NCBI RefSeq assembly: GCF_000013385.1
Contig: NC_007760.1
Location: 3,012,001 to 3,076,000 of the forward strand
DNA: 64,000 bases
DNA from: Anaeromyxobacter dehalogenans 2CP-C
GTDB taxonomy: Bacteria; Myxococcota; Myxococcia; Myxococcales; Anaeromyxobacteraceae
Direction of reading: 5' to 3'
Positions within the stretch are counted from its first letter, which is position 1, and every line of letters starts with the position of its first letter. A program made the translations under genes and the position numbers. The notes below the pieces were generated by a model that saw only the letters and a program-made list of their open reading frames with translations, did not search any database and had not been told where the DNA came from. This document shows, in pieces, positions 1-39,581 of this stretch.

Positions 1-703
1 ACAGCTCGCGCCGCGGGCGCCGCAGCACCGCCAGCACCGCGCGCGCGATCACCTCGGGCTGGTAGATGGGCGGCACCGGCTTCGGGTGGCCGGGCAGGCG
101 CGTGCGGACCAGCTCGAACTGCGGCGTGTTCACGGCGGGCAGGTGCACCATCGAGAGGCGCACCCGGCTGCGGTCGTGCGCGAGCTCGCAGCGGAGCGCG
201 TCGGTGAAGCCGCGGACCGCCGCCTTCGCGGCGCAGTACGCGCTCTGCAGCGGGATCGAGCGGTAGCAGAGCGCGGACCCGACCTGGACGACGTGACCGC
301 GGTCGTGGGGCAGCATGTGGCGGAGCGCGGCGCGCGTCCCGTGCACGTAGCCCAGGTACGTCACCTCGGTCACGCGCCGATACTCCTCTGCGGTCGTCTC
401 CATCACCGGGGCGAACACGCTCACCATCGCGTCGTTCACCCACACGTCGATGCCGCCCCACGCGCGCGCCACCGCGTCCGCGGCCGCCTCCACCGCGGCG
501 GCGTCCGAGACGTCGGCGACGACCGCGATGGCCTCGCCGCCCGCGGCGCGGATCTCGCGCGCGGCGTTCTCGAGCGCCTCGCCGTTCCGCGCGACCAGCG
601 CCACCCGCATCCGCGCCCGCCCCAGCTCGCGCGCCACCGCGCGCCCCACGCCCGCCGACGCGCCCGTCACCACCGCCACCTTCCCCGCCAGGTCCCTCCT
701 CAC
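1..703 (-). CDS. SDR-family short-chain dehydrogenase, C-terminus cut by window edge
   Basis: Predicted NAD(P)-dependent oxidoreductase of the classical short-chain dehydrogenase family; substrate unknown. The N-terminus shows the glycine-rich cofactor motif TGASAGVG (about residues 13-20) and the catalytic pair Y156-x3-K160 (YCAAK), with a Ser about 14 residues earlier. No ATG is available; the start is a GTG at 703 that overlaps the stop of the upstream small gene as GTGA, so the two are probably translationally coupled. The reading frame is still open at base 1, so the C-terminus is missing. The family assignment is firm, the reaction is not. Confidence 0.85.
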   Translation of the reverse strand, partial: MRRDLAGKVAVVTGASAGVGRAVARELGRARMRVALVARNGEALENAAREIRAAGGEAIAVVADVSDAAAVEAAADAVARAWGGIDVWVNDAMVSVFAPVMETTAEEYRRVTEVTYLGYVHGTRAALRHMLPHDRGHVVQVGSALCYRSIPLQSAYCAAKAAVRGFTDALRCELAHDRSRVRLSMVHLPAVNTPQFELVRTRLPGHPKPVPPIYQPEVIARAVLAVLRRPRREL

Positions 704-1065
704 CGCCGCGTCCCTCCCCCACCCTCTCGCTCCCCGGCGCCTCGCGGCGCGGGGGGCTCGTGCACCGGCTCGCCGGCCTCGCCCGTCTCGCCCGTCTCGC
801 CCTCGCCCGCCTGCCGCCCGCCGCGCGCCGGGTGGGCGCGGCGGGCCTCGTCCACGTGCGCCTTCCGCGTGCCGGCGCTCCGCTCCGCGGCGTCGGCCGC
901 GCGGCGCTGCGCGTCCGCCTCGGGCGCCTGCCCCGGCGGCTCGGCGCCCGGGTGTGGCGTCCCGTCGTCCACGCCGGGCGGCGCGGGGCCCGGGCCGCCG
1001 GCGAGCCCCTGCACCTTCGGCACCATCGACTCGTCACTGGGATGATCCGGCCGGTCGCTCGCCAT
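700..1065 (-). CDS. small hydrophilic protein of unknown function
   Basis: Encodes about 121 residues, rich in Gly, Pro, Glu, Asp and Arg, with no membrane segment or signal peptide and no domain I recognise. I chose the ATG at 1065 because GGAGGTGG sits about five bases upstream; the longer frame reaching 1143 has no such site and would overlap the 3' end of the neighbouring EEP gene. Its stop overlaps the GTG start of the SDR gene by four bases, which supports it being translated. Low complexity makes homology inference unsafe. Confidence 0.55.
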   Translation of the reverse strand: MASDRPDHPSDESMVPKVQGLAGGPGPAPPGVDDGTPHPGAEPPGQAPEADAQRRAADAAERSAGTRKAHVDEARRAHPARGGRQAGEGETGETGEAGEPVHEPPAPRGAGEREGGGGTRR

Positions 1066-2057: not shown

Positions 2058-3686
2058 TCAGTACGCCGCGAAGATCGTCGCGAACCCGGTCGTCCCGTAC
2101 GGCATGCTCCCGCCCTCCTCCGCGCCCGGGTCGAACGCGCCGCGGCCCGCCAGGCTGATCCGCAGCCCGAGGTGCCGGCCCAGATCAGCGGTCGCGCTGG
2201 CGAGCACCCCGACCTCGTCGCGGTCCACGCCGAACGCGGCGTCGTGCGACCAGCTCGCGCGCCCCACCAGCCGGAGCGCCTGGAACGGCCGCCACAGGAG
2301 CTGCGCGTACGCGCTCCGGCCGTCGAGCCAGCCCGACTCCTCCAGGTACCCCAGCGTCAGGCCGCCGCTCGCGCCGAGCAGCCGCGGCAGGCCCAGCTCC
2401 GGCCCGACCCAGCGCCGCTCCAGCCCGCTCGACACGTCGCGCGAGAAGCCGCCCGTGCCGCCCACCCGCAGCCAGCGCACCGGGTCCCAGCTCACGAACC
2501 CGTCCGCCGCGCGCGCGCGCCCGGGGAACGCCGCCGGGTCGAACGTCTGCGGCCACGCGAGCCCCGCGTGGCGGAAGCTGCCGCCCAGGAGCAGCCCGTC
2601 CACCGGCCGGACGCTCGCGTCCACGCGGGCCGAGTCCAGGTCGGCGCCGCCGCGCTTGCCGCCGCCGCCGACGTGCGCCTCGGCCGAGAGGTCCAGCCGG
2701 CGCAGGAACACGCGGCCGGTGAGCGACCCCTCCGCGCGCGTCCCCAGCTCCGGCGTGCGGACCATGGCGATGCGCCCCTCCTGCCGCCACGAGGCGCCGC
2801 GGCCGAGCGCGCCGTCGAGGATCCAGTACGCGCCGCCGGTCGCCCGGCGCGTGGTGGGCTCGGTGGTGTCGGGCTCCGGGACCGCCCCGCCGAACACGCC
2901 GCCCTCGGCGCGCGCGCCGAGCAGCCGCCCGCGCACGCCGGCCAGGCCGCCGTCGAACACGGTCGCCCCGGGGATGGCCCAGGGCAGCACCCGCCCGGCG
3001 GAGAGGCGCAGCGCGTCGCCGGGGGTTGCGGTGAGCTGCGCCTGCCAGAGGTAGAGCTGGGTGTCGTCGCGGGGGCGGAAGCGCGGCGCGTCGCGGCGGA
3101 GCCAGCGCTCGGCGCGGGCGTCCACGTCGAGCGTGAGCCAGGGCGCGAGCTCCGCCTCGCGGATGGCGACGTCCACGGCCGCGCGGTCCGAGGTGCCGGC
3201 GGTGGACGCGGTCCAGGCCTGGTAGGAGGCGCCCACCTCCGCGGTGCGGCTCCGCGGCACGGGGGCCGAGGCGGCGCCGGGGCCGGCGCGGAACTCGACC
3301 TGCGGGACCGCCGCGGCGGTGACGACCGCCAGCCGGCGGGCCAGCTCCGCGTCCCCGGGCGGCGGCGGGAGCGGCCTCGCCTCGGCCGCGAGCGCGGCGG
3401 GCTCGAACCGGAACGCGTCCCCGGGGCGCAGGCCGGCGCCGGCGCACGCCGCGTGGTGCGGCGCGAGCGACTCCACCGTGCACCGCCCGGCCGGCGCGCC
3501 GTTGCGCCGGAGCTCGAGCACCGCGCCCGGCGCGAGCCCGTCGTCGGAGCCCGCGTCGAGGTAGGCGCGCGAGGCGGTGGCGTAGGCGACCTGCCCGGTG
3601 CCGCGCGGGCGCTGCGTGCCCCGCGTGGATGCGGCGGGCGCGGCCGTCAGGGACACGGCCAGCACGAGGGCGAGCGCGCCCGGCAT
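2058..3686 (-). CDS. outer-membrane beta-barrel protein of the multiheme cytochrome operon
   Basis: 542 residues with a signal peptide (about residues 1-19), then a short beta domain (about 30-95) and a long region of alternating strands typical of outer-membrane barrels, ending in FAAY with a terminal aromatic residue as expected for a BAM-recognised last strand. It carries no heme motif. Its ATG overlaps the stop of the nine-heme lipoprotein gene as ATGA. From this position I infer a porin-like sheath for an outer-membrane cytochrome conduit, analogous in design to MtrB or the porin of porin-cytochrome complexes; sequence alone does not show homology to either. It could also be an unrelated porin. 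Confidence 0.75.
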   Translation of the reverse strand: MPGALALVLAVSLTAAPAASTRGTQRPRGTGQVAYATASRAYLDAGSDDGLAPGAVLELRRNGAPAGRCTVESLAPHHAACAGAGLRPGDAFRFEPAALAAEARPLPPPPGDAELARRLAVVTAAAVPQVEFRAGPGAASAPVPRSRTAEVGASYQAWTASTAGTSDRAAVDVAIREAELAPWLTLDVDARAERWLRRDAPRFRPRDDTQLYLWQAQLTATPGDALRLSAGRVLPWAIPGATVFDGGLAGVRGRLLGARAEGGVFGGAVPEPDTTEPTTRRATGGAYWILDGALGRGASWRQEGRIAMVRTPELGTRAEGSLTGRVFLRRLDLSAEAHVGGGGKRGGADLDSARVDASVRPVDGLLLGGSFRHAGLAWPQTFDPAAFPGRARAADGFVSWDPVRWLRVGGTGGFSRDVSSGLERRWVGPELGLPRLLGASGGLTLGYLEESGWLDGRSAYAQLLWRPFQALRLVGRASWSHDAAFGVDRDEVGVLASATADLGRHLGLRISLAGRGAFDPGAEEGGSMPYGTTGFATIFAAY

Positions 3687-4474
3687 CAGTTCACCCCCGT
3701 CGGATGGCAGCGGATGCAGGCGTCGGTGGCCCAGGCGTACCCGGAGATCTGGGTGTGGTGGGACGTCGTCTCGGTGTCACCATGGCAGGCCAGGCAGTCC
3801 TTCACGGCGAAGTCGGCCGCCCAGGCCTTGTCGGCGCGGGTGGCCGGGTGGCAGGTGAGGCAGGCGGCGCGGGTCCCGGAGTGCTTCAGGCCGGGCGCGA
3901 TCCCGAACGGCAGGTGCGCCGCGACGCGGTCCACCTGCGCCTCGGCGTGGCAGCGGACGCAGCGCGCCGAGTCGAACGCGTAGTCCGGCACCGCCGCGTG
4001 CGCGGTCGCCATGGAGGCCTGCTCGTGGTCGTGGCAGCCGGCGCAGCCGAGGACCTTCCGGTTCGCCGGGTCCACGTGGCACTCGGCGCAGCCGGCGGTG
4101 GCGTGGGCCGTCCCGGCGACGATCGGGAACAGCTTCGCGTGATCGACGCCCACCCCGGACTGGTGGCAGCCGTAGCAGGCCTCGCTTGCGAACTGGAACC
4201 CCGGAACGGCGCCGTGGCGCGTGGCCAGCGCCGCCTCGTCGGCGTGGTCGCCGGTGTGGCAGTGGATGCAGTCGAACTTCGCGAAGGTGTCGAACGCGCC
4301 GTGGCAGTCGTCGCAGGTGGCGGTCGCGTGCGGCGTGCCCGCCACGATCGGGAACCAGCGCTGCGCGTGGCCCGCGCGCGACGGCATGGTGAGGGACGGC
4401 GCGGAGCCCCCGCCCTCGCTGCACGCGAGCGCGAGCGCGGCGGCGGCGACGACGAACGTCTGAACGGTCCTCAT
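3686..4474 (-). CDS. nine-heme cytochrome c lipoprotein
   Basis: 262 residues. The signal peptide ends with a lipobox-like ALAC, predicting lipid attachment of the mature cysteine. I count nine CxxCH heme c sites (CDDCH, CIHCH, CYGCH, CAECH, CAGCH, CVRCH, CLTCH, CLACH, CIRCH) with many additional histidines available as distal ligands. The ATG at 4474 overlaps the upstream ten-heme gene stop (ATGA), and its own stop overlaps the barrel start in the same way. A lipid-anchored multiheme cytochrome directly before a barrel is the arrangement expected for the outer-membrane part of an electron conduit. Whether it faces the periplasm or the cell surface is unknown. Confidence 0.9.
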   Translation of the reverse strand: MRTVQTFVVAAAALALACSEGGGSAPSLTMPSRAGHAQRWFPIVAGTPHATATCDDCHGAFDTFAKFDCIHCHTGDHADEAALATRHGAVPGFQFASEACYGCHQSGVGVDHAKLFPIVAGTAHATAGCAECHVDPANRKVLGCAGCHDHEQASMATAHAAVPDYAFDSARCVRCHAEAQVDRVAAHLPFGIAPGLKHSGTRAACLTCHPATRADKAWAADFAVKDCLACHGDTETTSHHTQISGYAWATDACIRCHPTGVN

Positions 4475-5370
4475 CTCGGCACCCCGGTTCCGTGCAGGCC
4501 TCCGAACGCCGCCGAGAAGCGGTGGCACTCGTAGCACTTGCGGTTCACGAGCTGGAAGCCCGCCACGCCGTCGTGCTCCCCCGCGACGTTCCCGTGGCAG
4601 CGCAGGCAGTCGGCGGTGTCGGTGGCGCAGGTGAACGGCTGCGCGTAGTCCACCGCCGGGAAGCTCGAGTGGCAGTCCTTGCAGCGGATCCCGGCGTGCG
4701 GACCCGTCTTGATCGAGAAGCAGGCCTCGTGCGCGGGCAGCCCCGCCGGCGAGAACCGCCAGGCGCCGTGGCAGCCGCGGCAGTCCTGCGGGAAGCCGGC
4801 CAGGTCGTGGTTCACCGCCGCCGCGGCGGAGCCGGCGCGGGCCCAGTCGGCCTCGTGGCAGGCGATGCAGCGCGGCGTGGGCCGGGCGAAGGCGCGGTCG
4901 CGGCGGTCGCCGTGGCACGACTCGCACGCGACCAGGGCGTGGCGGCCGGTGAGCGGGAACGCGGTGCGCCGGTGCGCCTCCGGCCCGAACGTCGGGGTGG
5001 ACCAGGCGGTGGCGTCGTGGCAGGTCGCGCAGCGCGGCCCGAGGCGGCCGCCGTGGACGTCGCGGTGGCAGGCGGCGCAGGCGCGCGGCACCGGGTCGGC
5101 GAAGGTCCCGCTCGCGTGGCAGGCGCGGCACTGCGCGTCGCGGTGGCGTCCGTCGAGCGGGAAGCCGGTGCGCTCGTGCGCGAACGTCACCGCCTTCCAG
5201 CCGGCGGCGGTGTGGCACGCGGCGCAGTCGGTGTCGCCGCCGTGCGCGCCGGGGCCGGGGCGCGGCGCGGCGAGGTCGGCCCGGGGCGGCGGCGCGGCCG
5301 CGGCGGCGGCGGTCGCGAGGGTCGCGGTCGCGGCGAGGGCGAGCGCGAGGCGCGGAGCGGTGGCGATCAC
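4471..5370 (-). CDS. ten-heme periplasmic cytochrome c
   Basis: 299 residues starting at a GTG (5370) that overlaps the preceding gene's stop as GTGA. A long alanine-rich signal peptide (to about residue 26) directs export, with no lipobox. There are ten CxxCH motifs: CAACH twice, CRACH, CATCH, CESCH, CIACH, CRGCH, CKDCH, CLRCH and CYECH. Recurrent blocks such as H-x-R-T-x-FPL-x-GRH precede several heme sites and resemble repeats in its 20-heme neighbour, suggesting both arose from duplication of one module. Probable role: soluble or barrel-inserted electron carrier between the 20-heme protein and the lipoprotein. Confidence 0.9.
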   Translation of the reverse strand: MIATAPRLALALAATATLATAAAAAAPPPRADLAAPRPGPGAHGGDTDCAACHTAAGWKAVTFAHERTGFPLDGRHRDAQCRACHASGTFADPVPRACAACHRDVHGGRLGPRCATCHDATAWSTPTFGPEAHRRTAFPLTGRHALVACESCHGDRRDRAFARPTPRCIACHEADWARAGSAAAAVNHDLAGFPQDCRGCHGAWRFSPAGLPAHEACFSIKTGPHAGIRCKDCHSSFPAVDYAQPFTCATDTADCLRCHGNVAGEHDGVAGFQLVNRKCYECHRFSAAFGGLHGTGVPR

Positions 5371-7229
5371 GGCACGTACCCCCGGAACGCGCCCTGGTGG
5401 AAGTCGGCGTGGCAGCCCTGGCACTTCACGGCCAGCGGGCGGTAGCGGCGCACCGCCGCCCCGTCCACCTGCACCGCGGGGTGGCACTTCTCGCAGGCGA
5501 GCGCGCGGTGCTTGCCGTCGAGCGTGAACGCGGTGAACGGCTTCTGGTGCACGAAGCGGAGCGGCGCCGGCGCCTTCCAGCCGGCGGTCTCGTGGCAGCG
5601 GGCGCAGTCCGTCCCCTGCCCCTTCGCCGCGAGCTGGCCGGCGTGCGCGTCGGCGTGGCAGCCGGCGCACGCCTGGGGCACGCCGCGCCAGCGCACCACG
5701 CCCGCGCCGTCGGGCGCGTGGCACGAGCCGCAGGCGGCCCGCTCGTGCTTGCCGGTGAGCGGGAACCGCGCGTCGCGGGCGTGGTCGAAGCGCACCTTGC
5801 GGAAGGAGTCGAGCCCGTGGCAGGCGGTGCAGCCCTCGGCGCGGGTGCGCGCCTCGAACTGCCGGCCGTGCGGGTCCTTGTGGCAGCTGCGGCAGTCGGA
5901 GGGGCGCTGCAGGTCGAGCGACGCGAGGCTCACCGTCACCGGGCGGCGGTGGCGCGCGAGCTCGTCCCGGACCCGCGCCGGCACCTTCGCCGCGAGCCGC
6001 GCGTCCTTCGGGTGGCACAGCGCGCAGGCCACCGCGCGGTGCGCGCCCTCCAGCCGGTAGGCGGTGCGATCGTGGTCCTCCGGCTCGAAGCGGGCCGGGA
6101 GGAAGCGGTCCACGCCGTGGCAGCGGTCGCAGGCGCGCGGATCGGCCGCCCCGGCCGCAGTGCCGGCCGTCGAGGCGGGCCGCGGGAGGGCGCCTCCGGG
6201 CGCCGCCGCGCGGGCGAGCTGGCCCACGTGGGCGTCGGCGTGGCAGTCGGTGCAGCGCGCGAACGCGATGCCCTTGTAGCGCGCCCTCTCGCCGGGCCAC
6301 GGGCCGTGGCAGGCCTCGCAGGCCACCGTCGCGTGCGCGCCGCGCAGCGGGTAGCGGGTCTTCTCGTGGAAGGCGCGCTTCGCCCCGATTCCGGTCACGT
6401 GCTTCCAGTCCGCGGTGACGTGGCAGCTCGCGCACGCCTGGCCGAGCCGGTCCTGGTGCGGATCCTTGTGGCAGTCGGTGCAGGCCTGGAACGCCACGCC
6501 CTTGTAGCGGGCGTAGGCCGCCGCCCGCACCGGCGGCGTCATGCCGGGGCCGGGCGCGCCGGCGGCCTCCGCCACGTCCGCGTGGCACTTCGCGCAGGCG
6601 ACCTTCACGTGCTTCCCGTCGAGCCGGTACGCGGTGCGCGCGTGGTCGAAGCGCGCCGCCGGCTTCCAGGCGTCCTCGCCGTGGCACCTCGCGCAGTCGG
6701 GGCCGAGCTGGCCGCGGTGCTCGTCGAAGTGGCAGGCGGCGCAGCGCTGCGGCGCGCCCAGGCTCGTCTTCCGCTCCGGCTGCTTGCGCAGCAGCTCGGC
6801 GACGGCCGGGTCCGCCACGAGCCGCGGGTCGTGGCAGCGGGCGCAGTCCACCCGGCGGTGCTTGCCGCGCAGCTCGAACCCGGCCCGCGCGTGGTCGAAG
6901 CCCTTCTTGCCGCCCGGGCCCCAGTCCACCAGCGCGAAGTCCCGGCCCTGGTGCTCGTGATGGCACTTCTCGCACGCGCGCTCGGCCGCGGGGAGCCGGC
7001 CGTGGAGGCCCTGCCCGCGCGCGACCCGGTCCTTCAGCTCGGCGTGGCAGGCGAGGCAGCCGTCCGCCGAGAGCTGCTGCCCGGCCAGGTGGCACTTCGT
7101 GCAGCGCTGGAGCCCCTCCAGGCCCTGGTGAGGCCGGGAGAGCGGCCCGGGCGAGAACACGTCGGCGCGCGCGGCCGCCGGGGCGGCCAGCGCGAGCGAG
7201 GCGAGGAGCGCTGCGGTCGAGGGTTTCAC
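5367..7229 (-). CDS. twenty-heme periplasmic cytochrome c
   Basis: 620 residues from a GTG (7229) that overlaps the stop of the inner-membrane oxidoreductase gene (GTGA). The signal peptide is about 22 residues and ends AAARA. I count 20 CxxCH motifs spread along the whole chain. Repeated units carry the pattern F-DHAR-T-x-YRL-x-GKH-x3-CxxCH and GQL-x2-CxxCH, so the protein looks like a tandem array of a roughly 60-80-residue two-heme or three-heme module. That predicts an elongated heme wire across the periplasm. Downstream ten-heme and nine-heme proteins share the same repeat style. High heme count and operon position are direct observations; the wire role is inferred. Confidence 0.92.
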   Translation of the reverse strand: MKPSTAALLASLALAAPAAARADVFSPGPLSRPHQGLEGLQRCTKCHLAGQQLSADGCLACHAELKDRVARGQGLHGRLPAAERACEKCHHEHQGRDFALVDWGPGGKKGFDHARAGFELRGKHRRVDCARCHDPRLVADPAVAELLRKQPERKTSLGAPQRCAACHFDEHRGQLGPDCARCHGEDAWKPAARFDHARTAYRLDGKHVKVACAKCHADVAEAAGAPGPGMTPPVRAAAYARYKGVAFQACTDCHKDPHQDRLGQACASCHVTADWKHVTGIGAKRAFHEKTRYPLRGAHATVACEACHGPWPGERARYKGIAFARCTDCHADAHVGQLARAAAPGGALPRPASTAGTAAGAADPRACDRCHGVDRFLPARFEPEDHDRTAYRLEGAHRAVACALCHPKDARLAAKVPARVRDELARHRRPVTVSLASLDLQRPSDCRSCHKDPHGRQFEARTRAEGCTACHGLDSFRKVRFDHARDARFPLTGKHERAACGSCHAPDGAGVVRWRGVPQACAGCHADAHAGQLAAKGQGTDCARCHETAGWKAPAPLRFVHQKPFTAFTLDGKHRALACEKCHPAVQVDGAAVRRYRPLAVKCQGCHADFHQGAFRGYVP

Positions 7230-9472
7230 CGGTGGAGGAGCCCGTACCCGAGGTAGAGGGAGACGCCGATGTGCGCGGCGATGACGAGGACCAGGAACAC
7301 GGCCAGCGACGCGTGGAACACGCGCCAGCCGCGGAGCAGGCGCTTCAGCGAGGCGTAGAAGCGGATCTGCCAGCGCAGCCGCGCCAGCGCGACCAGCGTG
7401 GCGCGGAACTCGGCGTAGTGGCCGGTCCCGCGGAAGCGCCCGCGCACCCGCAGCAGGCGCAGGCGGAGCAGGAGCGACTCCGCCGGCATGCGCACGAACA
7501 GCAGCGCCAGCGAGCCGGCGCGGACCGGCGCGGTGGCGCGGTCGAGGAGCACCCGGGCCGGCGCGCCCGCCTCCTGCAGGAGCGGGCCGAGCGCCGCGCG
7601 GGAGCGCTCGAACCGCGCCAGCAGGTCGGCCAGCTCCACCGCCTTCCCGCCGTCGGAGGGGACCGTGCCGTAGATGAACCGCCCCACGATCCCGGTGCCG
7701 ACCACGATGCAGAGCGCGCCCGCGGTGCCGGTGGCGAGCAGGTTGTTCGACTGGAACGCGGAGTGGAACGCGATGACGAGCGGGCTCATGAAGCCCACGA
7801 ACACGTGGAAGTCGAGCCACCCGCGGATGCTCCCCAGCGGCGCGAAGCGCTTCCAGCGCTTGCGGACCGCGTAGAGGAAGTTCGAGAGCATGAACAGCGT
7901 CGCCACGATGCCGACGCCGTGGCCCCAGGGCCCGGCCGGCTTCATGGACGGGTGGAGCGGGGAGCGCAGCCGGTCGAGGCGCGCGAGCGGGTAGTACTCC
8001 CGCCCCTTCCACGCCAGCACCGCCAGGATCGCCACGCCGGCGAGCGCGTAGGCGGCGTGAAACGCGCGGCGGCGGCGCCGCTCCGCCACGGCCCGGCCCG
8101 CGCCGGCGGCGGGCCTGGCCTCGGCGGCGCCGCGCCCCGCGGGCCGCGCGCGGCCCGGCCGGCGGACCTGGCCGGGCGCCTCGCCGTGGTAGCGCCTGAG
8201 CGCCACGCCCGCCTTCGAGAGCAGCTCGAGCGGCAGCTCGCCGCCGACGTTCACCACCACGAAGTCGTTCTCCAGCGTGGCGGCGCGCCCGCCCACCTCG
8301 AGCACCACCTGGCGCGGGCGGATGGCGGTCACCTGCGAGCCGAGCAGCAGGCGCACCCGTCGCGCACCGGCCAGCTCCTGGAGGCGCGCGCGGTTCGCCT
8401 CGCGGCACCGCGCCAGCTCGGCGCCGCGGTACGAGAGCGTCACCTCCGCGCTGGACTCGGTGGCGAGCTGGATGGCCGCCTCCAGCGCCGCGTCGCCGCC
8501 GCCGACCACCAGCACCCGGTTGCCGTCGAACGCCTCCGGATCGCGCAGGCCGTACAGGACCTTCTCCTGCTCCTCGCCCGGCACGCCCAGCTTCCGCGGC
8601 GTGCCGCGGCGCCCGACCGCCAGCACCACCTTCGACGCCTGCACCGTGCCGCGATCGGTGCGCAGCTCGAAGCGGCCGTCCTCGCCGTCGAGGCCGGTGA
8701 CCTTGACGCCCTCCTCCACCGCGATCCCGGCCTTCGCGAGCACGCGCTGCCAGGAGGCGAGCAGCTCCTCCTTGCTGATGAGGCGCTTCCCGAACCGGCC
8801 CACCAGCGGCAGGTCCACCGGCTCGGTCATCGCCACCTTCTTGCGCGGGTAATGGGCGATCGAGCCGCCCATGGTCCCCTGCTCGAGGAGGCGGAACGGG
8901 ACGCCGCGGGCCTTCAGGCCGAGCGCGGTGGCGATGCCGGCCGGCCCCGCCCCCACGACGGCGACCGGCGCCTGCCGCGACGCGGTCTCGGCCAGCCGCT
9001 CCGCGACCTGGAGCCCCTGCTGGATCGCGTTCTTGATGAGCCCCATCCCGCCCAGCTCGCCGACGACGTGCACGCCGGGCCGGGAGGACTCGAAGAACTC
9101 GTCCACCTCCGGCAGGTCCACCCCGCGCTCGGCCGTGCCGAACACCAGGCGGATCGCGCCCACCGGGCACTCGGCGGCGCAGCGCCCGTGGCCGATGCAG
9201 TGGTCGGCGTGCACCAGCTTCGCGGCGCCGTCCACGATGCCGAGGATGTCGCCCTCCGGGCACGCGCGGAGGCAGGAGAGGCTGCCGATGCAGACGTTCG
9301 GGTCGATGACCGGGTGGAGCGAGCGGGCCAGGTGCTGGCCGCGGGCGCGCTTCGCCTCGAGCTCGGCGGCGTCGCGGCGCTCGCGGGCCCAGCGCCGGCC
9401 GAGGTGGCCGCCCGCGAGCAGGCCGACGCTGGCGAGGGAGCCGGAGACGATCCAGAGGGTGGCGAGGTCCAT
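7226..9472 (-). CDS. inner-membrane fusion: ferredoxin + FAD/NAD(P) oxidoreductase + cytochrome b-like membrane domain
   Basis: 748 residues. N-terminal membrane anchor (about 5-25), then a ferredoxin-like domain with Cys 61, 67, 71 and 92, 98, 102; both motifs lack the second cysteine of the usual CxxCxxCxxxCP (Ser64 and His95 instead). Next comes a thioredoxin-reductase-like domain with two dinucleotide folds (GAGPAG about 174-179, GGGDAAL about 324-330). After an Arg/Ala-rich linker, the C-terminal third has about five membrane helices with histidines placed for b-type hemes (His556/His570, and an FHAS...AAHIG pair in the last helix). First gene of the multiheme operon. Likely links NAD(P)H or quinol to periplasmic cytochromes; direction of flow is not decidable from sequence. 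Confidence 0.85.
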   Translation of the reverse strand: MDLATLWIVSGSLASVGLLAGGHLGRRWARERRDAAELEAKRARGQHLARSLHPVIDPNVCIGSLSCLRACPEGDILGIVDGAAKLVHADHCIGHGRCAAECPVGAIRLVFGTAERGVDLPEVDEFFESSRPGVHVVGELGGMGLIKNAIQQGLQVAERLAETASRQAPVAVVGAGPAGIATALGLKARGVPFRLLEQGTMGGSIAHYPRKKVAMTEPVDLPLVGRFGKRLISKEELLASWQRVLAKAGIAVEEGVKVTGLDGEDGRFELRTDRGTVQASKVVLAVGRRGTPRKLGVPGEEQEKVLYGLRDPEAFDGNRVLVVGGGDAALEAAIQLATESSAEVTLSYRGAELARCREANRARLQELAGARRVRLLLGSQVTAIRPRQVVLEVGGRAATLENDFVVVNVGGELPLELLSKAGVALRRYHGEAPGQVRRPGRARPAGRGAAEARPAAGAGRAVAERRRRRAFHAAYALAGVAILAVLAWKGREYYPLARLDRLRSPLHPSMKPAGPWGHGVGIVATLFMLSNFLYAVRKRWKRFAPLGSIRGWLDFHVFVGFMSPLVIAFHSAFQSNNLLATGTAGALCIVVGTGIVGRFIYGTVPSDGGKAVELADLLARFERSRAALGPLLQEAGAPARVLLDRATAPVRAGSLALLFVRMPAESLLLRLRLLRVRGRFRGTGHYAEFRATLVALARLRWQIRFYASLKRLLRGWRVFHASLAVFLVLVIAAHIGVSLYLGYGLLHR

Positions 9473-18156: not shown

Positions 18157-18662
18157 CGATCGAGACGGATCGGGCGGCGCAGCGCGCGCGCGTCGAGCGC
18201 TTCGCCCGCGAGCACCCCGGCAGCGTGATGTACGACGGCGCCACCCTGCTCGACGTCTACTCCGGGAAGGCGCTGCACCTCGACTGGATGCGCGTGGCGC
18301 GCCTGGAGGAGCGCTCCGACGCCGAGACCGGGCGCCCGTACCTGGCGCTGGGCCGCGACGACGGCAGCGAGGTCGCGATGGCCGAGCAGGGCGTGGTGTT
18401 CCCGCCGTGCACCACCGGGACCGGACCGCTGGAGGGGCTCCCGCGCGCGGTCTGCTTCCGCGACCTGGCGCAGGCCGAGGGCCGGCTCACCCACTTCCTG
18501 CTCGACCACCCGGACGAGCGCCCGAGCGCGACGCACGTGTCGCTGTTCCTGTTCTGCCTGGCGGTGGTGGACGGGGCGCGCGCGGCGGGGTTCGACGTGT
18601 CGCGCGAGGAGCGGCGGCTCGAGGCCGTGCTGAACGAGCTCGAGGCGCGCAAGCGCGGCTGA
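18153..18662 (+). CDS. conserved-looking cytoplasmic protein coupled to greB
   Basis: 169 residues, no signal peptide or membrane segment, no domain I recognise. The N-terminal half alternates strands (YLALGRDDGSEVAMAEQGVVF), the C-terminal half is helical. It begins within the greB stop codon (ATGA), which predicts coupled translation and perhaps a related function in transcription. Codon use matches the neighbours. Confidence 0.65.
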   Translation: MTIETDRAAQRARVERFAREHPGSVMYDGATLLDVYSGKALHLDWMRVARLEERSDAETGRPYLALGRDDGSEVAMAEQGVVFPPCTTGTGPLEGLPRAVCFRDLAQAEGRLTHFLLDHPDERPSATHVSLFLFCLAVVDGARAAGFDVSREERRLEAVLNELEARKRG

Positions 18663-18780
18663 GCAGGCCCCGCCTCCGCGGGTGCGCCACCGCCGCACGC
18701 GGCCCATCTTTGCCCCGGTGGCGCGCGGCCGGCGTGCCCGGGCGGCGGGCCGGCCGCCGCGCGGAGGGAGGGCGACCGGG

Positions 18781-19566
18781 GTGCGCTTCCGCGTGGTCAC
18801 CTGGAACGTGCACGGCCTGCGCGGCGCGGGCCGCCGCCCCGATCCCGAGCGCATCGCCCGCGTGCTCGACGACATCGGCGCGGACGTGGCCGGGCTGCAG
18901 GAGGTGGGCGCGAGCCTGCCGGGCGCCGACGCGCACGCGGCCGAGGCGCTCGCGCGGCTCACCGGCCTCAACGGCGCGTTCGGCCCGACGCTCCAGCACG
19001 CGCGCGGCTTCGCGTACGGGAACGCCATCCTCTCGCGCCACCCCATCGACGCGACGCGCACCTACGACCTGTCGGTGCCCGGCCGCGAGCCCCGCGGCTG
19101 CCTGCGCGCCGACGTCGTCCTCGGCCCGATGCGCGTCCACGTGTTCGCGGCCCACCTCGGCCTGCACTGGCGCGAGCGGCGCCGCCAGGCCGCCGCGCTG
19201 CTGTCGGCGGACATCCTGCGCGACGCGGCGCTCTCCCACCCGCTCGTGCTGGTCGGGGACTTCAACTCGCCCTCGGACCGCTCGGCGGTGCCGCGCTGGC
19301 TGCGCCGAACGCTCACCGACTGCGCGGTCGCGGCCGGCCGGCCCGCCGCCACGTTCCCGTCCGCCTGGCCGCTCCTGCGGCTGGACCGCGCCTACGTGGA
19401 CGCCGCGCTGCGCGTCGTCGCCTGCGAGGTGGTGCGGACGCCGCGCGCCCGGCGCGCCTCGGACCACCTGCCGCTGGTCGTCGAGCTGGAGCTCACCGAG
19501 GCCGCGCGCCGGCCGCCCGCCCCGCGGCCGGTCGAGGCGCCTGGCGTCCGGACGCGCACCGGCTGA
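18781..19566 (+). CDS. EEP-family phosphodiesterase/nuclease, cytoplasmic
   Basis: 261 residues from a GTG at 18781, chosen because GGAGGGAGG lies upstream and the protein then begins directly with the first strand VRFRVVTWNVHG. Motifs of the endonuclease/exonuclease/phosphatase fold appear in order: TWNVHG, LQEVG, AHLGLHW, GDFNSPSD and SDHLPLVV. Unlike the EEP protein at 1131-2015 it has no signal peptide. The substrate (DNA, lipid headgroup or other phosphodiester) is not indicated. Confidence 0.85.
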   Translation: MRFRVVTWNVHGLRGAGRRPDPERIARVLDDIGADVAGLQEVGASLPGADAHAAEALARLTGLNGAFGPTLQHARGFAYGNAILSRHPIDATRTYDLSVPGREPRGCLRADVVLGPMRVHVFAAHLGLHWRERRRQAAALLSADILRDAALSHPLVLVGDFNSPSDRSAVPRWLRRTLTDCAVAAGRPAATFPSAWPLLRLDRAYVDAALRVVACEVVRTPRARRASDHLPLVVELELTEAARRPPAPRPVEAPGVRTRTG

Positions 19567-19574
19567 TCCCGCCG

Positions 19575-19594
19575 CCGCCGGCGCGCGCCGGCGG
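19575..19594 (+). terminator. GC-rich hairpin after the EEP gene
   Basis: A perfect 20-base palindrome, able to form an 8-bp stem with a GCGC loop, nine bases after the stop codon. There is no T tract. Confidence 0.4.
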
Positions 19595-19677
19595 TGGACG
19601 ACGGCGGGGCCTCGATCGCGCCCCGCCCGATGCGCAGGCTGTGACGCGGGCCCGGGAGCGGGCGGGAGGGATACGAC

Positions 19678-19968
19678 ATGGCGATGTCCTGGAAGGCGAT
19701 GAAGGGGATGCTCGACCGCGAGCTGCTCTTGAAGCGGATGGGGCTGGAGGAGCGCAGCCCGGCCGGCGACTTCTTCACCGGCCTCGGCCTGTTCTCGGTC
19801 GGCGTGCTGGTGGGCGCCGGGCTGGGCATGATGTTCGCGCCGAGGCGCGGCGAGGACCTGCGCGCGATGATGACCGACGCGTGGCGGCAGCGGACCGGCA
19901 AGCCGGCGCAGGGGCCCGACTACCAGGCCATGGGCGCCGAGACGGCGATGCCGTCGCCGGCGCACTGA
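19678..19968 (+). CDS. YtxH-like small membrane-anchored protein
   Basis: 96 residues. One membrane helix (about 33-53, FFTGLGLFSVGVLVGAGLG) followed by the characteristic MMFAPRRGEDLR, the YtxH-type signature seen in stress-associated small proteins. A short N-terminal amphipathic segment precedes it. Role unknown; probably inner-membrane with a cytoplasmic C-terminus. It converges with engB. Confidence 0.75.
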   Translation: MAMSWKAMKGMLDRELLLKRMGLEERSPAGDFFTGLGLFSVGVLVGAGLGMMFAPRRGEDLRAMMTDAWRQRTGKPAQGPDYQAMGAETAMPSPAH

Positions 19969-19982
19969 CGGCTGCCGGACGG

Positions 19983-20633
19983 CTACGCCGGCGGGTCGGC
20001 CTCGGCGGTCCGCGCCTCCTCGGCGGCGAGCGCGGCGAGCCGCGCCCAGAGCGCGTCGGTGCCGGTGCCCTCCACCGCGGAGAACGGCACCGCGTCGCCG
20101 CGGGCCAGGCCGAGCGCGCGCTCCACCTGCTGGAGCGCGAGCACGCGGCGCGCCTTGGGCAGCTTGTCCGTCTTGGTCGCCGCCACGACGAGGCGCCGCC
20201 CCGCCGACACCAGGAACGCGGCGGCGTCCTCGTCGCTCTCCGACGGCGCGTGGCGCGCGTCCACGATGAGCACCACCGCGCGCAGCACGTCGCGGTCGCG
20301 CAGGTAGTCCTCGATCATCGCGGTCCAGCGATCGCGCTCGGCCCGCGAGACCTTGGCGTAGCCGTAGCCGGGCAGGTCGCAGAAGCGGATCGCGCGCGGG
20401 CGCGCCGCCGGGGTGGGCCGGTACGAGAGGTCGAAGAACTGGAGCGCGCGGGTGCGCCCGGGCGTGGACGAGACGCGCGCCAGCCCCTTGCGGCGGGCGA
20501 GCGCGTTCAGCATCGACGACTTCCCCACGTTGGAGCGGCCCACGAACGCGATCTCGGGCGTGGCGCCGCGCGGCCACTCCTCGGGGCGGGTGGCGGTCTT
20601 GTCGAAGTCGGCGGAGACGACCTGGATCGGCAC
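19983..20633 (-). CDS. engB: ribosome biogenesis GTPase EngB (YihA/YsxC)
   Basis: 216 residues, start GTG at 20633 with an AGGAG site that overlaps the stop of the cytochrome gene upstream. G1 motif GRSNVGKSS (about 32-40), G3 region DLPGYGYAKV, G4 TKTDK, and the switch sequence SSTPGRT are all present. GTPase for large-subunit assembly, usually essential. The C-terminus is about ten residues longer than typical and acidic/alanine-rich. Its operon partner, a tetraheme cytochrome, is unusual. Confidence 0.94.
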   Translation of the reverse strand: MPIQVVSADFDKTATRPEEWPRGATPEIAFVGRSNVGKSSMLNALARRKGLARVSSTPGRTRALQFFDLSYRPTPAARPRAIRFCDLPGYGYAKVSRAERDRWTAMIEDYLRDRDVLRAVVLIVDARHAPSESDEDAAAFLVSAGRRLVVAATKTDKLPKARRVLALQQVERALGLARGDAVPFSAVEGTGTDALWARLAALAAEEARTAEADPPA

Positions 20634-20642
20634 GTCGGGCTC

Positions 20643-21164
20643 CTAGCGGCCGCCGGGGCGGCGGGCGGGGGCCGGGGCTGGCCGCGCCGGCGCGCGGGGA
20701 CCCGTCGGCGCGGCGGCGTCGCCGGGCGCCGGGGTCCAGTGATCGATGAGCGGCAGCTTTCGCTTCGGGTCGAAGCGCAGCAGGCTCGGCGTCGAGTCGG
20801 TGTGGCAGGCGAGGCAGGTCTTCGGGCCCGGATCCACCAGGCCCACCGCGCGCGCCAGCTCGCGGTCGCGCATGACGTGGTCGGCCGCGTAGGCGCGCCC
20901 CGGGCCGTGGCACGTCTCGCAGGAGACGCCGGCGAGCCCGTCCTCGCGGTCGGGCGCGTGGCAGGAGAGGCAGCGCGGGTCGTCCCGGCGCTCCGCCGGC
21001 AGCACCTCGAGCGCGCGCGCGTGAGGGCTCACCCGCCAGCGCTCGTACGCGGACGGGTGGCAGGCCTTGCACGCCTCGGGTCCCACCTTGTCGCCTGCGG
21101 CGCGCGCGGCGGGCGGGAGGGCGAGGATCGCGGCGAGGAGCGGGAGGCGGAGGGCGGGGAGCAC
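20643..21164 (-). CDS. tetraheme cytochrome c
   Basis: 173 residues from GTG 21164, or 181 from ATG 21188. The N-terminal signal peptide ends AARA. Four heme sites: CKACH, CLSCH, CETCH and CLACH. The opening GPEACKACHPSAYERW is typical of the cytochrome c554/c' type multiheme family. The last 30 residues are Pro/Ala/Arg-rich. I prefer the GTG because a -10-like TATACT on this strand lies just upstream of it and covers the first codons of the longer version. Co-transcribed with engB, nine bases apart. Confidence 0.85.
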   Translation of the reverse strand: MLPALRLPLLAAILALPPAARAAGDKVGPEACKACHPSAYERWRVSPHARALEVLPAERRDDPRCLSCHAPDREDGLAGVSCETCHGPGRAYAADHVMRDRELARAVGLVDPGPKTCLACHTDSTPSLLRFDPKRKLPLIDHWTPAPGDAAAPTGPRAPARPAPAPARRPGGR

Positions 21165-21173
21165 GGGGGCCGG

Positions 21174-21181
21174 AGTATAAT
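21174..21181. promoter_or_regulatory. symmetrical bidirectional -10 element
   Basis: The eight bases AGTATAAT give a perfect TATAAT on the plus strand (21176-21181) and TATACT on the minus strand (21179-21174). They lie five bases before the plus-strand ATG (21187) and nine before the minus-strand GTG (21164). No -35 box is obvious on either side. Confidence 0.5.
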
Positions 21182-21186
21182 GCGGC

Positions 21187-21675
21187 ATGCGCCTCGTCTG
21201 GCTCTCCACCGCGATCCTCCTCGCCCTCGGCCCCGTTTCCGCCGCCGCACGCCCGTGGAAGGGCGTCACCCCGGGCGTCACGGCGCAGGCCGAGGTGGTC
21301 GGGAAGTTCGGCGAGCCCACCGCCCGCACCCGCCGCGGGGCGCGCACCGTCCTCGCGTACTACGGCGACCAGGCGCTGGAGGGGACCAAGCAGGCGCAGT
21401 TCCACCTCGATCCGGCCGGCACGGTCCAGGAGATCACCATCTTCCTGACCGTCCCGCTCGACGCGGACACCATCGAGGGGACCTACGGCAAGCCCACGCA
21501 GAAGACGTTCGTGGAGGACACCTTCCAGAAGGTCTGGCTCTACCCGGCGCAGGGCGTGACCGTGTACTTCGCGAAGGACGGGAGCGTCGAGGCGCTCTCG
21601 TTCGCGGCGGGGCGGCAGAAGGCCGCGCCCGCCTCCGCGAAGCCGGCCGCGGCCGAGACCGCCACGACGCGCTGA
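21187..21675 (+). CDS. secreted protein of unknown function
   Basis: 162 residues with a signal peptide (about 1-21). The mature part opens with WKGVTPGVTAQAEVVGKFGEP, a pattern resembling small periplasmic SmpA/OmlA-like or DUF4878-like repeat proteins in which a G-x-PT loop follows a helix; the motif recurs as IEGTYGKPT about 65 residues later, so the protein may be two related halves. The ATG has no clear ribosome site and lies five bases after a perfect TATAAT, so the transcript may be leaderless. Confidence 0.65.
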   Translation: MRLVWLSTAILLALGPVSAAARPWKGVTPGVTAQAEVVGKFGEPTARTRRGARTVLAYYGDQALEGTKQAQFHLDPAGTVQEITIFLTVPLDADTIEGTYGKPTQKTFVEDTFQKVWLYPAQGVTVYFAKDGSVEALSFAAGRQKAAPASAKPAAAETATTR

Positions 21676-21681
21676 GGCGGC

Positions 21682-22317
21682 GTGCGCGTCATCGGGCTGA
21701 CCGGCGGGATCGCGACCGGCAAGAGCACCTTCGCGGCGCTGCTCCGGGCGCGGGGCGCGCCGGTGGTGGACGCGGACGCGCTGGCGCGGGCCGCGGTCGA
21801 GCCCGGCACGCCGGCGCTGGCCGAGATCGCCCGGACGTTCGGCGCGGAGGTGCTGCGCCCGGACGGCGCGCTCGACCGCAAGGCGCTCGGCGCGCGCGTG
21901 TTCGCCGACCCGGGCGCGCGGCGCCGGCTCGAGGCCATCACCCACCCCGCCGTCCGCCTCGCCATGCGCGAGGAGACCGCCCGCCTGGCCGCGCAGGGCC
22001 ACCCGCTCGCGTTCTACGACACGCCGCTGCTGTACGAGGTCGGGCTGGAGGCCCTGCTCGACGCGGTGGTGGTGGTCTGGGCGCCGCGCGACGTGCAGCG
22101 CGAGCGCCTGATGCGCCGCGACGGGCTCGGCGGCGCCGAGGCCGACGCGCGCCTGGCGGCGCAGCTCCCGGTGGACGAGAAGGCGGCGCGCGCCGACTTC
22201 GTGGTCGAGAACGCCGGCGCCCCCGAGGCGCTGGCCGGCAAGGCCGACCGCCTGCTGGCGGACCTGCGGGGGGGCCGGGGGCGCAGGCTTCCCAACGCGC
22301 CCCCCGTGCGCTATTGA
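21682..22317 (+). CDS. coaE: dephospho-CoA kinase
   Basis: 211 residues from a GTG. Last step of coenzyme A synthesis, phosphorylating the 3'-hydroxyl of dephospho-CoA. P-loop GLTGGIATGKST (about 5-16), the lid and substrate segment VVDADALAR, and the HP motif ITHPAVR are present. It lies six bases after the secreted-protein gene and eight before the SDR gene, so the three are probably one transcript. Confidence 0.94.
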   Translation: MRVIGLTGGIATGKSTFAALLRARGAPVVDADALARAAVEPGTPALAEIARTFGAEVLRPDGALDRKALGARVFADPGARRRLEAITHPAVRLAMREETARLAAQGHPLAFYDTPLLYEVGLEALLDAVVVVWAPRDVQRERLMRRDGLGGAEADARLAAQLPVDEKAARADFVVENAGAPEALAGKADRLLADLRGGRGRRLPNAPPVRY

Positions 22318-22324
22318 CCGCGGC

Positions 22325-23476
22325 ATGGGGGCCGGCGCGCGCGTCCACTTCGTCACGGGGTACCCGGGGTTCATCGGGAAGCGGCTGGTGCGCCGCCTCC
22401 TCGAGGACGCGCTGCGCGGCGACGATCGCGTGGTGCTCCTGGTCCAGCCGCGCAACGCCGCCGCGGCGCGGGCCGACCTGGGCGCGCTCGGCGCCGAGCG
22501 GGCCGAGGTGCTGGAGGGGGACGTCGAGCAGATGCACCTCGGCCTCTCCGGCGCCGAGTGGAAGGCGCTCGCCCGCGAGGTGACCGACGTCTGGCACCTG
22601 GCGGCGCGCACGTGGCTGGGCGCCTCGCGCCCGGAGTTCCGCCGGGTGAACCTCGAGGGCACGCGCAACGTGCTGGAGCTGGGCCGCGCGGCCCGCCGGC
22701 TCCGGCGGCTCAACCACTTCTCGACGGCGTTCGTCTCGGGCGACCGGGTAGGCGTCATCCTCGAGGACGAGCTGGCCATGGGCCAGCGCTTCCACAACGC
22801 GTACGAGGAGACGAAGTACCAGGGCGAGCTGCTGGTCCGCGCGGCGCAGTCGGAGCTGCCCGCGACCATCTACCGCCCCAGCATCGTGGTGGGCGACTCG
22901 CGCACCGGCGAGATCGACCGGTTCGAGGGGCCCTACGCGCTCGCCATCCTGCTGGTGGCCTCCCCGCTGGCGGTCCCGCTGCCGCTCCCGGGCGACGCCG
23001 TGGCGCCGCTCAACGTGGTCCCGGTGGACTTCGTGGTGAACGCGGCCGTGGCCATCGGCGAGGCGCCCGCCGCGGCCGGCCGCACCGTGCACCTGGTGGA
23101 CCCGTCGCCGCTCTCCGCCCGGCGCGTGTACGAGCTCATCGCCGCGCACGCGGGCAAGCGCCTGCCGTCGGTGTCGGTCCCGGCGCGCGTGCTCCAGGCG
23201 CTGCTCCAGCTGCCGCTGCTGGAGCGGCTCTCGCGCGTGCACCGGCCCGCCATCGAGTACGTGAACCACCTCGCCATCTACAACTGCCGCAACCTGCTCG
23301 AGCTGCTCGACGGCACCGGCCTGCGCTGCCCGCCCATCTCCAGCTACCTCGACCGGCTCATCGACTTCGTGCAGGGGACGTTCGAGAAGCGCCGCGAGGC
23401 CGAGCTGGCGCAGCTCGCGGGCGACGCCGACGACCCGCTCGATCCGCCCGCCCCGCCCGCGTCCGGCGCCGCCTGA
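22325..23476 (+). CDS. extended SDR (male-sterility/acyl-reductase-like NAD(P)-binding domain)
   Basis: 383 residues. Rossmann motif TGYPGFIGKRLVRRLL (about 11-26), an active-site YEETKYQGE with the Y-x3-K-type pair and an HFSTAFVSG strand; the fold matches the NAD-binding-4 (male sterility) branch of SDRs that includes fatty-acyl reductases and lipid dehydrogenases. Not a full acyl-CoA reductase: the C-terminus is only a short helical cap. Next to two dehydratase genes, it may act on acyl or polyketide-like chains. Substrate unknown. Confidence 0.8.
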   Translation: MGAGARVHFVTGYPGFIGKRLVRRLLEDALRGDDRVVLLVQPRNAAAARADLGALGAERAEVLEGDVEQMHLGLSGAEWKALAREVTDVWHLAARTWLGASRPEFRRVNLEGTRNVLELGRAARRLRRLNHFSTAFVSGDRVGVILEDELAMGQRFHNAYEETKYQGELLVRAAQSELPATIYRPSIVVGDSRTGEIDRFEGPYALAILLVASPLAVPLPLPGDAVAPLNVVPVDFVVNAAVAIGEAPAAAGRTVHLVDPSPLSARRVYELIAAHAGKRLPSVSVPARVLQALLQLPLLERLSRVHRPAIEYVNHLAIYNCRNLLELLDGTGLRCPPISSYLDRLIDFVQGTFEKRREAELAQLAGDADDPLDPPAPPASGAA

Positions 23477-23986: not shown

Positions 23987-24463
23987 GTGCCCATCGACCG
24001 CAAGCACCTGGGCCGGCGCTACGGCCCGTACCGCTTCACCGTGGGCCTCGAGCAGATCCGCGACTTCGCCTCCGCGACCGGCGGCGGCGTGCCGGGCCGG
24101 GTCTTCGCGGTGGCGCCGGAGCGCGCCCACGCGTGGACCTGGGACGAGGCCGCGGCCGCCGCCTCGCCGCACGGCGGGCTGGTGGCGCCGCCCACCTTCG
24201 CGGCCGCGTTCGCGATCCAGCCGTTCGCGACCGCCTGCGCGGACCCGGAGCTGGGCGTGAACGTGCTCCGCCTGGTCCACGCCGAGCAGTCCTTCGAGCT
24301 GGAGGCGCCGGTGCGCCCCGGCGACGTGCTCGAGACCGAGGGCGAGATCACCCGGATCCAGGACCGGGGCAGCCTCGACTTCCTCGAGGTCACCACCGAG
24401 ACCCGCAACCAGCGCGGCGAGCGCGTGGTGCGCGGGGTCTGGACCGCGATCATCCGGAACTGA
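23987..24463 (+). CDS. FAS1-like dehydratase subunit (HadA-like hotdog protein)
   Basis: 158 residues from GTG 23987. N-terminal MaoC-like (PF13452 type) hotdog domain: Y-x-FTVGLEQIRDFASATG, then VAPPTFAAAFAIQPF and a LVHAEQSFELEAPVRPGD segment. It lacks the D-x4-H active-site motif present in the preceding MaoC subunit, as expected for the substrate-binding half of a HadAB-type heterodimer. It overlaps nothing but lies four bases downstream, so the two are co-expressed. Confidence 0.82.
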   Translation: MPIDRKHLGRRYGPYRFTVGLEQIRDFASATGGGVPGRVFAVAPERAHAWTWDEAAAAASPHGGLVAPPTFAAAFAIQPFATACADPELGVNVLRLVHAEQSFELEAPVRPGDVLETEGEITRIQDRGSLDFLEVTTETRNQRGERVVRGVWTAIIRN

Positions 24464-24466
24464 CGC

Positions 24467-25219: not shown

Positions 25220-25222
25220 GGC

Positions 25223-27081
<1,859 letters not shown>

Positions 27082-37009: not shown

Positions 37010-37024
37010 CCCGGGTGCGCCGGA

Positions 37025-37054: not shown

Positions 37055-37082
37055 TTCGCGTGTCCGCGGCGGCCGCGGGGCG

Positions 37083-39578
<2,496 letters not shown>

Positions 39579-39581
39579 CCT

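Follow-up and report, generated by a model that had tools for sequence, protein, structure and literature searches.

Genes of the operon

The window studied here is a stretch of 64,000 nucleotides from the genome of Anaeromyxobacter dehalogenans 2CP-C (NC_007760.1, positions 3,012,001 to 3,076,000). At 2058-9472, on the minus strand, lie five genes for a flavin/iron-sulphur (Fe-S)/cytochrome b fusion protein (FLV-b), three multiheme cytochromes c and a predicted outer-membrane beta-barrel (Table 1). We describe this operon, its homology to the conduit type known as PCC3 and its proposed function.

The five genes, their common strand and their positions, given in an initial annotation made from the sequence alone, were all confirmed. 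So was its figure of 39 hemes c: the three cytochromes contain 20 + 10 + 9 CXXCH motifs, far above the expectation from shuffling each protein 2000 times (means 0.18, 0.11 and 0.11, maxima 5, 2 and 2 for the 20-, 10- and 9-heme proteins). The annotation also had every junction as a 4-base overlap, which is true of the first three (GTGA, GTGA, ATGA); the fourth, between the 9-heme and barrel genes, is a 1-base overlap in TGATG, not ATGA. The genes are probably carried on a single transcript.

Table 1. Genes of the operon (window coordinates) and domains of the fusion protein (residues)
Feature	Position	Strand	Description
FLV-b fusion P0001	7226-9472	minus	ATG start, 748 amino acids (aa)
20-heme cytochrome P0002	5367-7229	minus	GTG start, 620 aa, signal peptide by eye
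10-heme cytochrome P0003	4471-5370	minus	GTG start, 299 aa, signal peptide by eye; presumed barrel partner
9-heme lipoprotein P0004	3686-4474	minus	ATG start, 262 aa; variable, presumed surface cytochrome
Outer-membrane beta-barrel (predicted) P0005	2058-3686	minus	ATG start, 542 aa, signal peptide by eye
FLV-b N-terminal transmembrane-like segment	residues 1-21		hydropathy
FLV-b ferredoxin-like domain	motifs CIGSLSCLRACP (61), CIGHGRCAAECP (92)		Pfam/NCBIfam: ferredoxin-like dicluster
FLV-b FAD/NAD(P) domain	about 170-430		YpdA/thioredoxin-reductase-like, pyridine nucleotide-disulphide oxidoreductase
FLV-b diheme cytochrome b domain	about 466-748		like the PCC3 inner-membrane protein; H556/H570 and H720/H734

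Hydropathy places membrane segments of the fusion at residues 1-21, 469-489, 518-536, 551-573, 577-605 and 712-747; residues 168-186 score as hydrophobic too, yet are the start of the FAD-binding domain. Because positive residues follow the first segment and precede the b domain, the positive-inside rule would put the flavin part in the cytoplasm, and with this orientation H556/H720 and H570/H734 would ligate one heme near each membrane face. The flavin domain scores 138.8 bits against the YpdA model TIGR04018, below the curated cut-off of 339.9, and the solved structures closest to it by sequence, 7a76 and 7a7b, are of the YpdA/Bdr type. Enzymes of this type use NADPH. The b domain alone had no Pfam match at E<=0.01, the ferric reductase-like transmembrane domain included. 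The initial annotation had considered the inner-membrane partner unlike CymA, and we agree: the fusion has zero CXXCH motifs and no tetraheme NapC/NirT-type domain among the 24 Pfam matches listed at E<=0.1.

Homology to PCC3

He et al. (PMC5566968) defined PCC3 by four components: a porin, an extracellular cytochrome, a periplasmic one with a median of 21 hemes, and an inner-membrane protein (IMP) that has two WX3HX13H motifs and SGXXG and is thought to be quinone-reactive; this and all later statements on published work refer to the available portions of the papers. The b domain of the fusion has both WX3HX13H motifs (W552, W716), with TGXXG between them instead of SGXXG. A profile of 33 fusion b domains aligned with one of 12 stand-alone PCC3-type IMPs in hhalign at 99.7%, and when Myxococcus sp. 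RHSTA-1-4 and A. oryzae were searched genome-wide with a profile of nine stand-alone IMPs, the fusion b domain was the only match at E<=1e-5 (1.6e-19 and 2.3e-22). The N-terminal half of the fusion is found in other bacteria as a separate Fe-S flavoprotein gene beside the IMP, by both profile and BLAST. The 20-heme protein is homologous to the PCC3 periplasmic cytochromes (hhalign, 31 versus 20 proteins, the latter with 21 or 24 hemes; E 4.8e-99).

PCC3-type clusters were found in Bradyrhizobium, Hyphomicrobium, Caulobacterales, Marinagarivorans and genomes of the class to which G027, the genome of a Pseudomonadales locus, belongs (G numbers denote genomes, L numbers loci). They contain the IMP, a cytochrome of 18-24 hemes, another with as many as 83 and, if the locus extends far enough, a barrel some 480-850 aa long; the Fe-S flavoprotein gene lies near them and is usually divergent. 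Bradyrhizobium is among the published PCC3 carriers (PMC5566968), and the order IMP, periplasmic cytochrome, extracellular cytochrome, porin is that of Slit_1446-1449 in Sideroxydans ES-1 (PMC12016527). Neither Anaeromyxobacter nor myxo appears as a word in the main text of PMC5566968. The flavoprotein is not counted as a PCC3 component in the available portions of PMC5566968, PMC10734462, PMC12442390, PMC12016527, PMC13386937 and PMC8788666; the cluster drawings of He et al. may show the gene.

The extracellular cytochromes of the Bradyrhizobium loci can be giant, with 83 CXXCH motifs at L067:1-7044 and L080:2-6889, both of which reach the locus end, and 73 at L059:102-6761; He et al. reported 85 in Agromonas oligotrophica S58 (PMC5566968). 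In the two PCC3-type clusters scanned for it, an ankyrin/Sel1-repeat gene follows the stand-alone flavoprotein gene (L123:5545-7557, L059:11232-12728), and genes of similar size occupy this position in many other loci. Close to the alphaproteobacterial clusters, four genes at L059:13020-17378, with similar ones in L061, L062, L067, L070, L077 and L082, resemble by eye the cytochrome c maturation genes ccmFGHI.

An AlphaFold2 model of the barrel built on a 21-sequence alignment (mean pLDDT 80, pTM 0.64; folding without the alignment gave an unusable pLDDT of 32.5) has 22 beta strands in residues 148-541, preceded by a small beta domain at about residues 30-93. Among the 50 matches listed, the model resembles solved outer-membrane barrels (porins, receptors and ushers) with Z 15.3-19.4, which supports the outer-membrane type proposed for it at the outset; MtrB was not among the listed matches, an absence that carries no weight. 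The barrel had no NCBIfam or Pfam match at E<=0.1, and its profile had none among PDB sequences at E<=1. A relationship to a Gemmatimonadaceae barrel was also tried, and no homology was detected.

The operon has, as PCC3 does, an inner-membrane two-WX3HX13H protein (here with TGXXG, and fused), a periplasmic cytochrome of about 21 hemes (here 20) and a barrel gene in the cluster. Its 9-heme lipoprotein is a candidate for the extracellular cytochrome. Since its barrel is not detectably homologous to PCC3 porins, we regard it as a PCC3-related variant rather than a strict member. Barrels diverge fast, so descent from those porins is conceivable, and membership is not claimed; judged from these comparisons the outer-membrane step seems to have changed, or diverged past recognition, relative to PCC3.

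Co-occurrence and fusion history of the flavoprotein

We evaluated co-occurrence of flavoprotein and IMP in 229 genomes of one class only, that of G027 (presumably Gammaproteobacteria). Cut-offs were E<=1e-40 for a strong IMP match and E<=1e-60 for the flavoprotein, and at most 10 and 7 candidates, respectively, were scored per genome, so that misses are possible. The IMP profile matched in 36 genomes at E<=1e-12, 29 of them at the strong cut-off, and the flavoprotein profile in 31 (the flavoprotein of G067, two pieces with a stop, was counted as one). Both were present in 28 genomes, a strong IMP only in one, a flavoprotein only in three and neither in 197, the last including seven with weak IMP matches (Fisher 2e-31, taking genomes as independent and ignoring relatedness). 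An earlier flavoprotein check had used 18 IMP-negative genomes taken from listed genomes rather than drawn at random; it was repeated on all 229.

The four discordant genomes look as follows. G224, with the IMP only, has a truncated flavoprotein next to it. Of those with the flavoprotein only, G211 holds a PCC3-type cluster that is interrupted by the end of its contig, and G131 a partial gene beside small multiheme open reading frames (ORFs) on a contig of 3.5 kb. In G172 the flavin domain belongs to a 777-aa protein, and no IMP is in view there. The 32 strong IMP copies have a flavoprotein on the same contig (27), on another contig (4) or no full-length one (1); it is on the opposite strand in 26 and within 1 kb in 20. 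The Fe-S flavoprotein is thus an almost invariable partner of the PCC3 IMP where tested.

The seven weak-IMP genomes gave flavin-only matches in proteins of about 800 aa, as did the IMP-negative G042 and a second place in G238. In the three of these seven that were opened, this protein directly adjoins a protein with two WX3HX13H motifs in a PCC4-like setting.

In a tree of 66 flavoprotein domains, the flavoprotein-b fusions form a single clade (100/99) whose members are Myxococcota, apart from a few rows that carry no phylum label; L072, which falls in this clade, is a fusion that has been cut. Fusions in the reverse order, b-flavoprotein, occur at four loci in other Myxococcota. Three of these are a separate clade (100/100), and the fourth, L071, is a long branch beside the flavoprotein-b clade whose placement is unsure. 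With opposite domain orders in separate clades, fusion of these domains seems to have happened on at least two occasions.

The Fe-S motifs vary in a regular way. Our count demanded both motifs exactly 31 residues apart in sequences of at least 370 residues, so some sequences fell out. In all 66 that were kept the second cysteine of motif 2 is a histidine, as it is in all 19 of the dropped flavoproteins that were looked at; motif 2 was not seen in the truncated gene L143 or the broken locus L063. At the corresponding position of motif 1, all 38 fusions among the 66 (34 flavoprotein-b and 4 b-flavoprotein) have serine, and the 28 counted as stand-alone have cysteine (24), serine (3, one being L072, the fusion cut by a contig end) or alanine (1). 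The 19 dropped sequences have cysteine (15), serine (3, two of them fusions or fusion pieces) or threonine (1). Ferredoxins that carry CXXHXXC(X)nCP have been obtained as [3Fe-4S] proteins, the His and Asn forms having more positive potentials and the Ser form a lower one (PMC6237146). These are single-cluster proteins, so their transfer to the two-motif domain of the fusion is only a lead.

Gene order and cytochromes

Scanning named genomes with a profile yielded 64 loci; gene counts rest on a gene caller by which some starts are missed and some cytochromes merged. Myxococcota (Anaeromyxobacter, Myxococcus sp. RHSTA-1-4, Archangium and others) repeatedly show the fusion followed by the 20-heme gene, the 10-heme gene and then a small cytochrome and/or barrel. 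The 20-heme ORF begins within 400 bases of the fusion in 29 of the 32 loci with a one-frame fusion (exceptions L027, L042 and L051), and the 20-heme and 10-heme genes overlap by exactly 4 bases in 26 of the 28 related loci where both were called. Directly after the 10-heme gene, in 28 loci, comes the barrel (19), another multiheme gene (8) or neither (1, L049); where it is a multiheme gene, the barrel follows in seven, and L033 stops at the contig end. The initial annotation had paired the barrel with the multiheme lipoprotein. The better conserved pair is the barrel with the 10-heme cytochrome; the lipoprotein is what varies.

This variability is seen at the lipoprotein position itself, where relatives have 8-14 hemes, or instead proteins of 27-51 hemes nearby, of which several begin like lipoproteins. 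A lipobox-like pattern (...LALAC) is found at the N-terminus of the 9-heme protein, and most relatives at this position have similar N-termini. Its presumed place is the cell surface.

The 10-heme protein was also considered as MtrA, and this was unsupported at the family level: it scores 29.6 bits against the DmsE/MtrA model TIGR03508 (curated cut-off 192.2), and its family profile matches 6r2q chain A over partial length (E 3.5e-6), more weakly than a 16-heme cytochrome. We take this chain to be MtrA, for which the structure table gives another molecule name. It also resembles the C-terminal half of the PCC3 periplasmic cytochromes (E 2.5e-42) and its own 20-heme neighbour (3.8e-36), and as the first is only slightly better than the second, descent from either is possible. 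In G005, an Anaeromyxobacter, a single 867-aa ORF with 30 CXXCH motifs (L087:6568-9171) consists of the 20-heme and 10-heme proteins head to tail, which supports their order in the chain.

Upstream of the operon is a divergent PALP-family gene (Pfam), presumably cysteine synthase-like, and downstream an endonuclease/exonuclease/phosphatase-family gene (Pfam). Elsewhere in the window, six long minus-strand candidate ORFs were scanned, and four of them, at 18487-22869, 24450-26687, 33526-36366 and 36928-41988 (1460, 745, 946 and 1686 aa), had no Pfam match at E<=1e-5. RND efflux parts lie near the flavoprotein or fusion at L021:4069-9322, L051:12284-16573 and L059:20619-21242 (ACR_tran with HlyD_D23, or the adaptor alone at the locus end); in L051 the fusion is on one side of them and a 14-heme lipoprotein-like cytochrome on the other. 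As a clue to metal stress they were set aside, being seen in three loci only; a link is possible.

Proposed function

We propose, with a probability of roughly 60%, that the five genes specify a trans-envelope conduit: an Fe-S flavoprotein that oxidises NAD(P)H in the cytoplasm is joined in one protein to a diheme cytochrome b spanning the membrane, and cytochromes wire it outward. Electrons would pass from NAD(P)H to FAD and two atypical Fe-S clusters in the cytoplasmic part of the fusion, then to the b heme on the cytoplasmic side (H556/H720) and that on the periplasmic side (H570/H734). From there the 20-heme protein would act as a wire to the 10-heme protein, a plug within the 22-strand barrel, and the 9-heme lipoprotein on the surface would hand them to an external acceptor. 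The fusion would work like a ferric reductase/NADPH oxidase (FRE/NOX), in which a reductant in the cytoplasm feeds two stacked b hemes that deliver electrons across the membrane; the added cytochromes would extend its reach beyond the outer membrane. A full route from inside to outside had already been suggested in the initial annotation; as a chain of genes from the cytoplasmic face to the surface it is backed by anatomy and conservation. With NAD(P)H as donor, outward flow would be downhill and favoured by the membrane potential.

Several points weigh against this proposal. The fusion is patchily distributed within the host family: it was matched in 16 of 24 genomes, some of these matches partial or with a stop, and is absent from three Anaeromyxobacter genomes that are 99-100% complete (G003, G004 and G008). 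NAD(P)H use is read from the distant TIGR04018 match, the surface exposure of the lipoprotein is a prediction, and the barrel, tried as a PCC3 porin homologue, gave an hhalign probability of 4.7% (E 0.0084) against 18 PCC3-type porins. The b domain may have a quinone site. Outward transfer by this route would conserve no energy, odd for a respiratory system and a better fit to a sink or an assimilatory reductase than to a respiratory chain. No published experiment on the operon was found in the literature searched. PCC3 itself has been modelled as an uptake path from an extracellular donor to the quinone pool (PMC5566968), and one PCC3 inner-membrane gene was up with iron oxidation in Sideroxydans CL21 (PMC12442390). 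The evidence on direction is mixed: in Sideroxydans ES-1 both PCC3 clusters were down on Fe(II), and the authors concluded that, under the conditions used, neither seemed to take part in oxidising Fe(II) (PMC8788666), while a proteome table for this strain gives IMP values from 25.6 to 60.7 with no clear pattern (PMC12016527).

An unlikely competitor is a quinone-linked conduit, in which menaquinol would be oxidised at the b domain and the flavoprotein half would be regulatory or a secondary entry point. He et al., who proposed menaquinol oxidation for the PCC3 IMP, liken the two HX13H motifs to those of quinone-reactive cytochromes b and draw exchange with the quinone pool (PMC5566968). Yet flavoprotein and b protein occur near one-to-one in the class tested and have been fused in two orders, which would be unexpected for a dispensable accessory. 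Less likely again is electron uptake through the same chain, with Fe(II), Mn(II) or a solid donor outside and NAD(P)+ as the final acceptor. PCC3 does occur in some iron oxidisers (PMC5566968), and the CL21 result (PMC12442390) points the same way, but the ES-1 clusters go down on Fe(II) (PMC8788666), the host is described as an Fe(III) reducer (PMC4245776) and moving electrons from Fe(II) to NAD(P)+ would be uphill and against the membrane potential.

Predicted localisation also leaves a small chance for a periplasmic charge store, with the lipoprotein facing the periplasm and the barrel serving some other role; the 2CP-C genome paper, in its available portion, suggests that large cytochromes may act as capacitors. 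This is the most improbable of the three, as 26 of 28 loci have the barrel immediately behind the 10-heme gene or one cytochrome gene further on (exceptions L033, at its contig end, and L049), and the large cytochromes that recur nearby often have lipoprotein-like N-termini.

PCC3 has been reported in iron-oxidising and other bacteria, with no test of function, direction or inner-membrane chemistry reported in the available portions of PMC5566968 and PMC12442390. Tentatively, and with distinctly less confidence than for the operon itself, PCC3-type conduits as a class might be NAD(P)H-driven trans-envelope reductases, wired counterparts of FRE/NOX that bypass the quinone pool, rather than Fe(II) oxidases feeding quinones; the flavoprotein would then be an uncounted fifth component, and its always-histidine Fe-S motif would set the redox potential. 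Natural fusion in two orders and near one-to-one co-occurrence name the cytoplasmic partner of PCC3, and the choices between quinone and NAD(P)H and between inward and outward flow become reducible to a single-protein assay on the Anaeromyxobacter fusion. Similar conduits lie in Myxococcus and Bradyrhizobium, lineages known as aerobes, where extracellular electron transfer is not usually expected.

Comparison with known systems

The closest relative is PCC3, where, as here, a single cluster holds a diheme b IMP, a homologous periplasmic cytochrome of about 20 hemes, a barrel gene and one more cytochrome; the flavoprotein that neighbours PCC3 is homologous over its length to the N-terminal half of the fusion. 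The operon differs in that flavoprotein and b protein are fused, a 10-heme protein is added, the last cytochrome is a small lipoprotein, TGXXG replaces SGXXG and the 542-aa barrel has no detectable PCC3 porin homology.

PCC4 (PMC5566968) is similar in that the three opened loci, assigned to it by resemblance, have an FAD/Fe-S protein beside a two-WX3HX13H IMP and a 10-heme cytochrome, which suggests a flavin/Fe-S partner in PCC4 too. There the FAD/Fe-S protein has about 800 aa with its domains arranged differently, and the similarity of the IMP is weak; the proteins at L144:7055-9478, L145:7632-10001 and L146:6347-8779 have the flavin domain N-terminal and CxxCxxC C-terminal.

MtrCAB/MtoAB and the Geobacter-type Pcc (OmbB-OmaB-OmcB) share the general layout of a multiheme cytochrome, an outer-membrane barrel and a surface cytochrome; unlike the first of these, the operon has a 10-heme protein without a family-level DmsE/MtrA match. 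The survey of Shi et al. (PMC4245776) gave one pcc cluster per searched genome of this kind, and in that of 2CP-C, a two-gene type, the periplasmic cytochrome is Adeh_3392 (12 or 14 hemes), which makes it distinct from the five-gene operon. The latter, which is not listed in the available portion of that survey, is a second porin-cytochrome candidate for a model metal and halide respirer.

YpdA/Bdr bacillithiol disulfide reductases are the nearest solved relatives of the flavin domain, which in the fusion falls below their family cut-off and is set within a membrane Fe-S/cytochrome b protein. FRE/NOX, finally, also combine a cytoplasmic flavin reductase with a diheme b domain that lies in the membrane and has two HX13H motifs, and the fusion would work like them; its flavin domain is instead a pyridine nucleotide-disulphide oxidoreductase accompanied by Fe-S motifs, and its b domain has no Pfam match.

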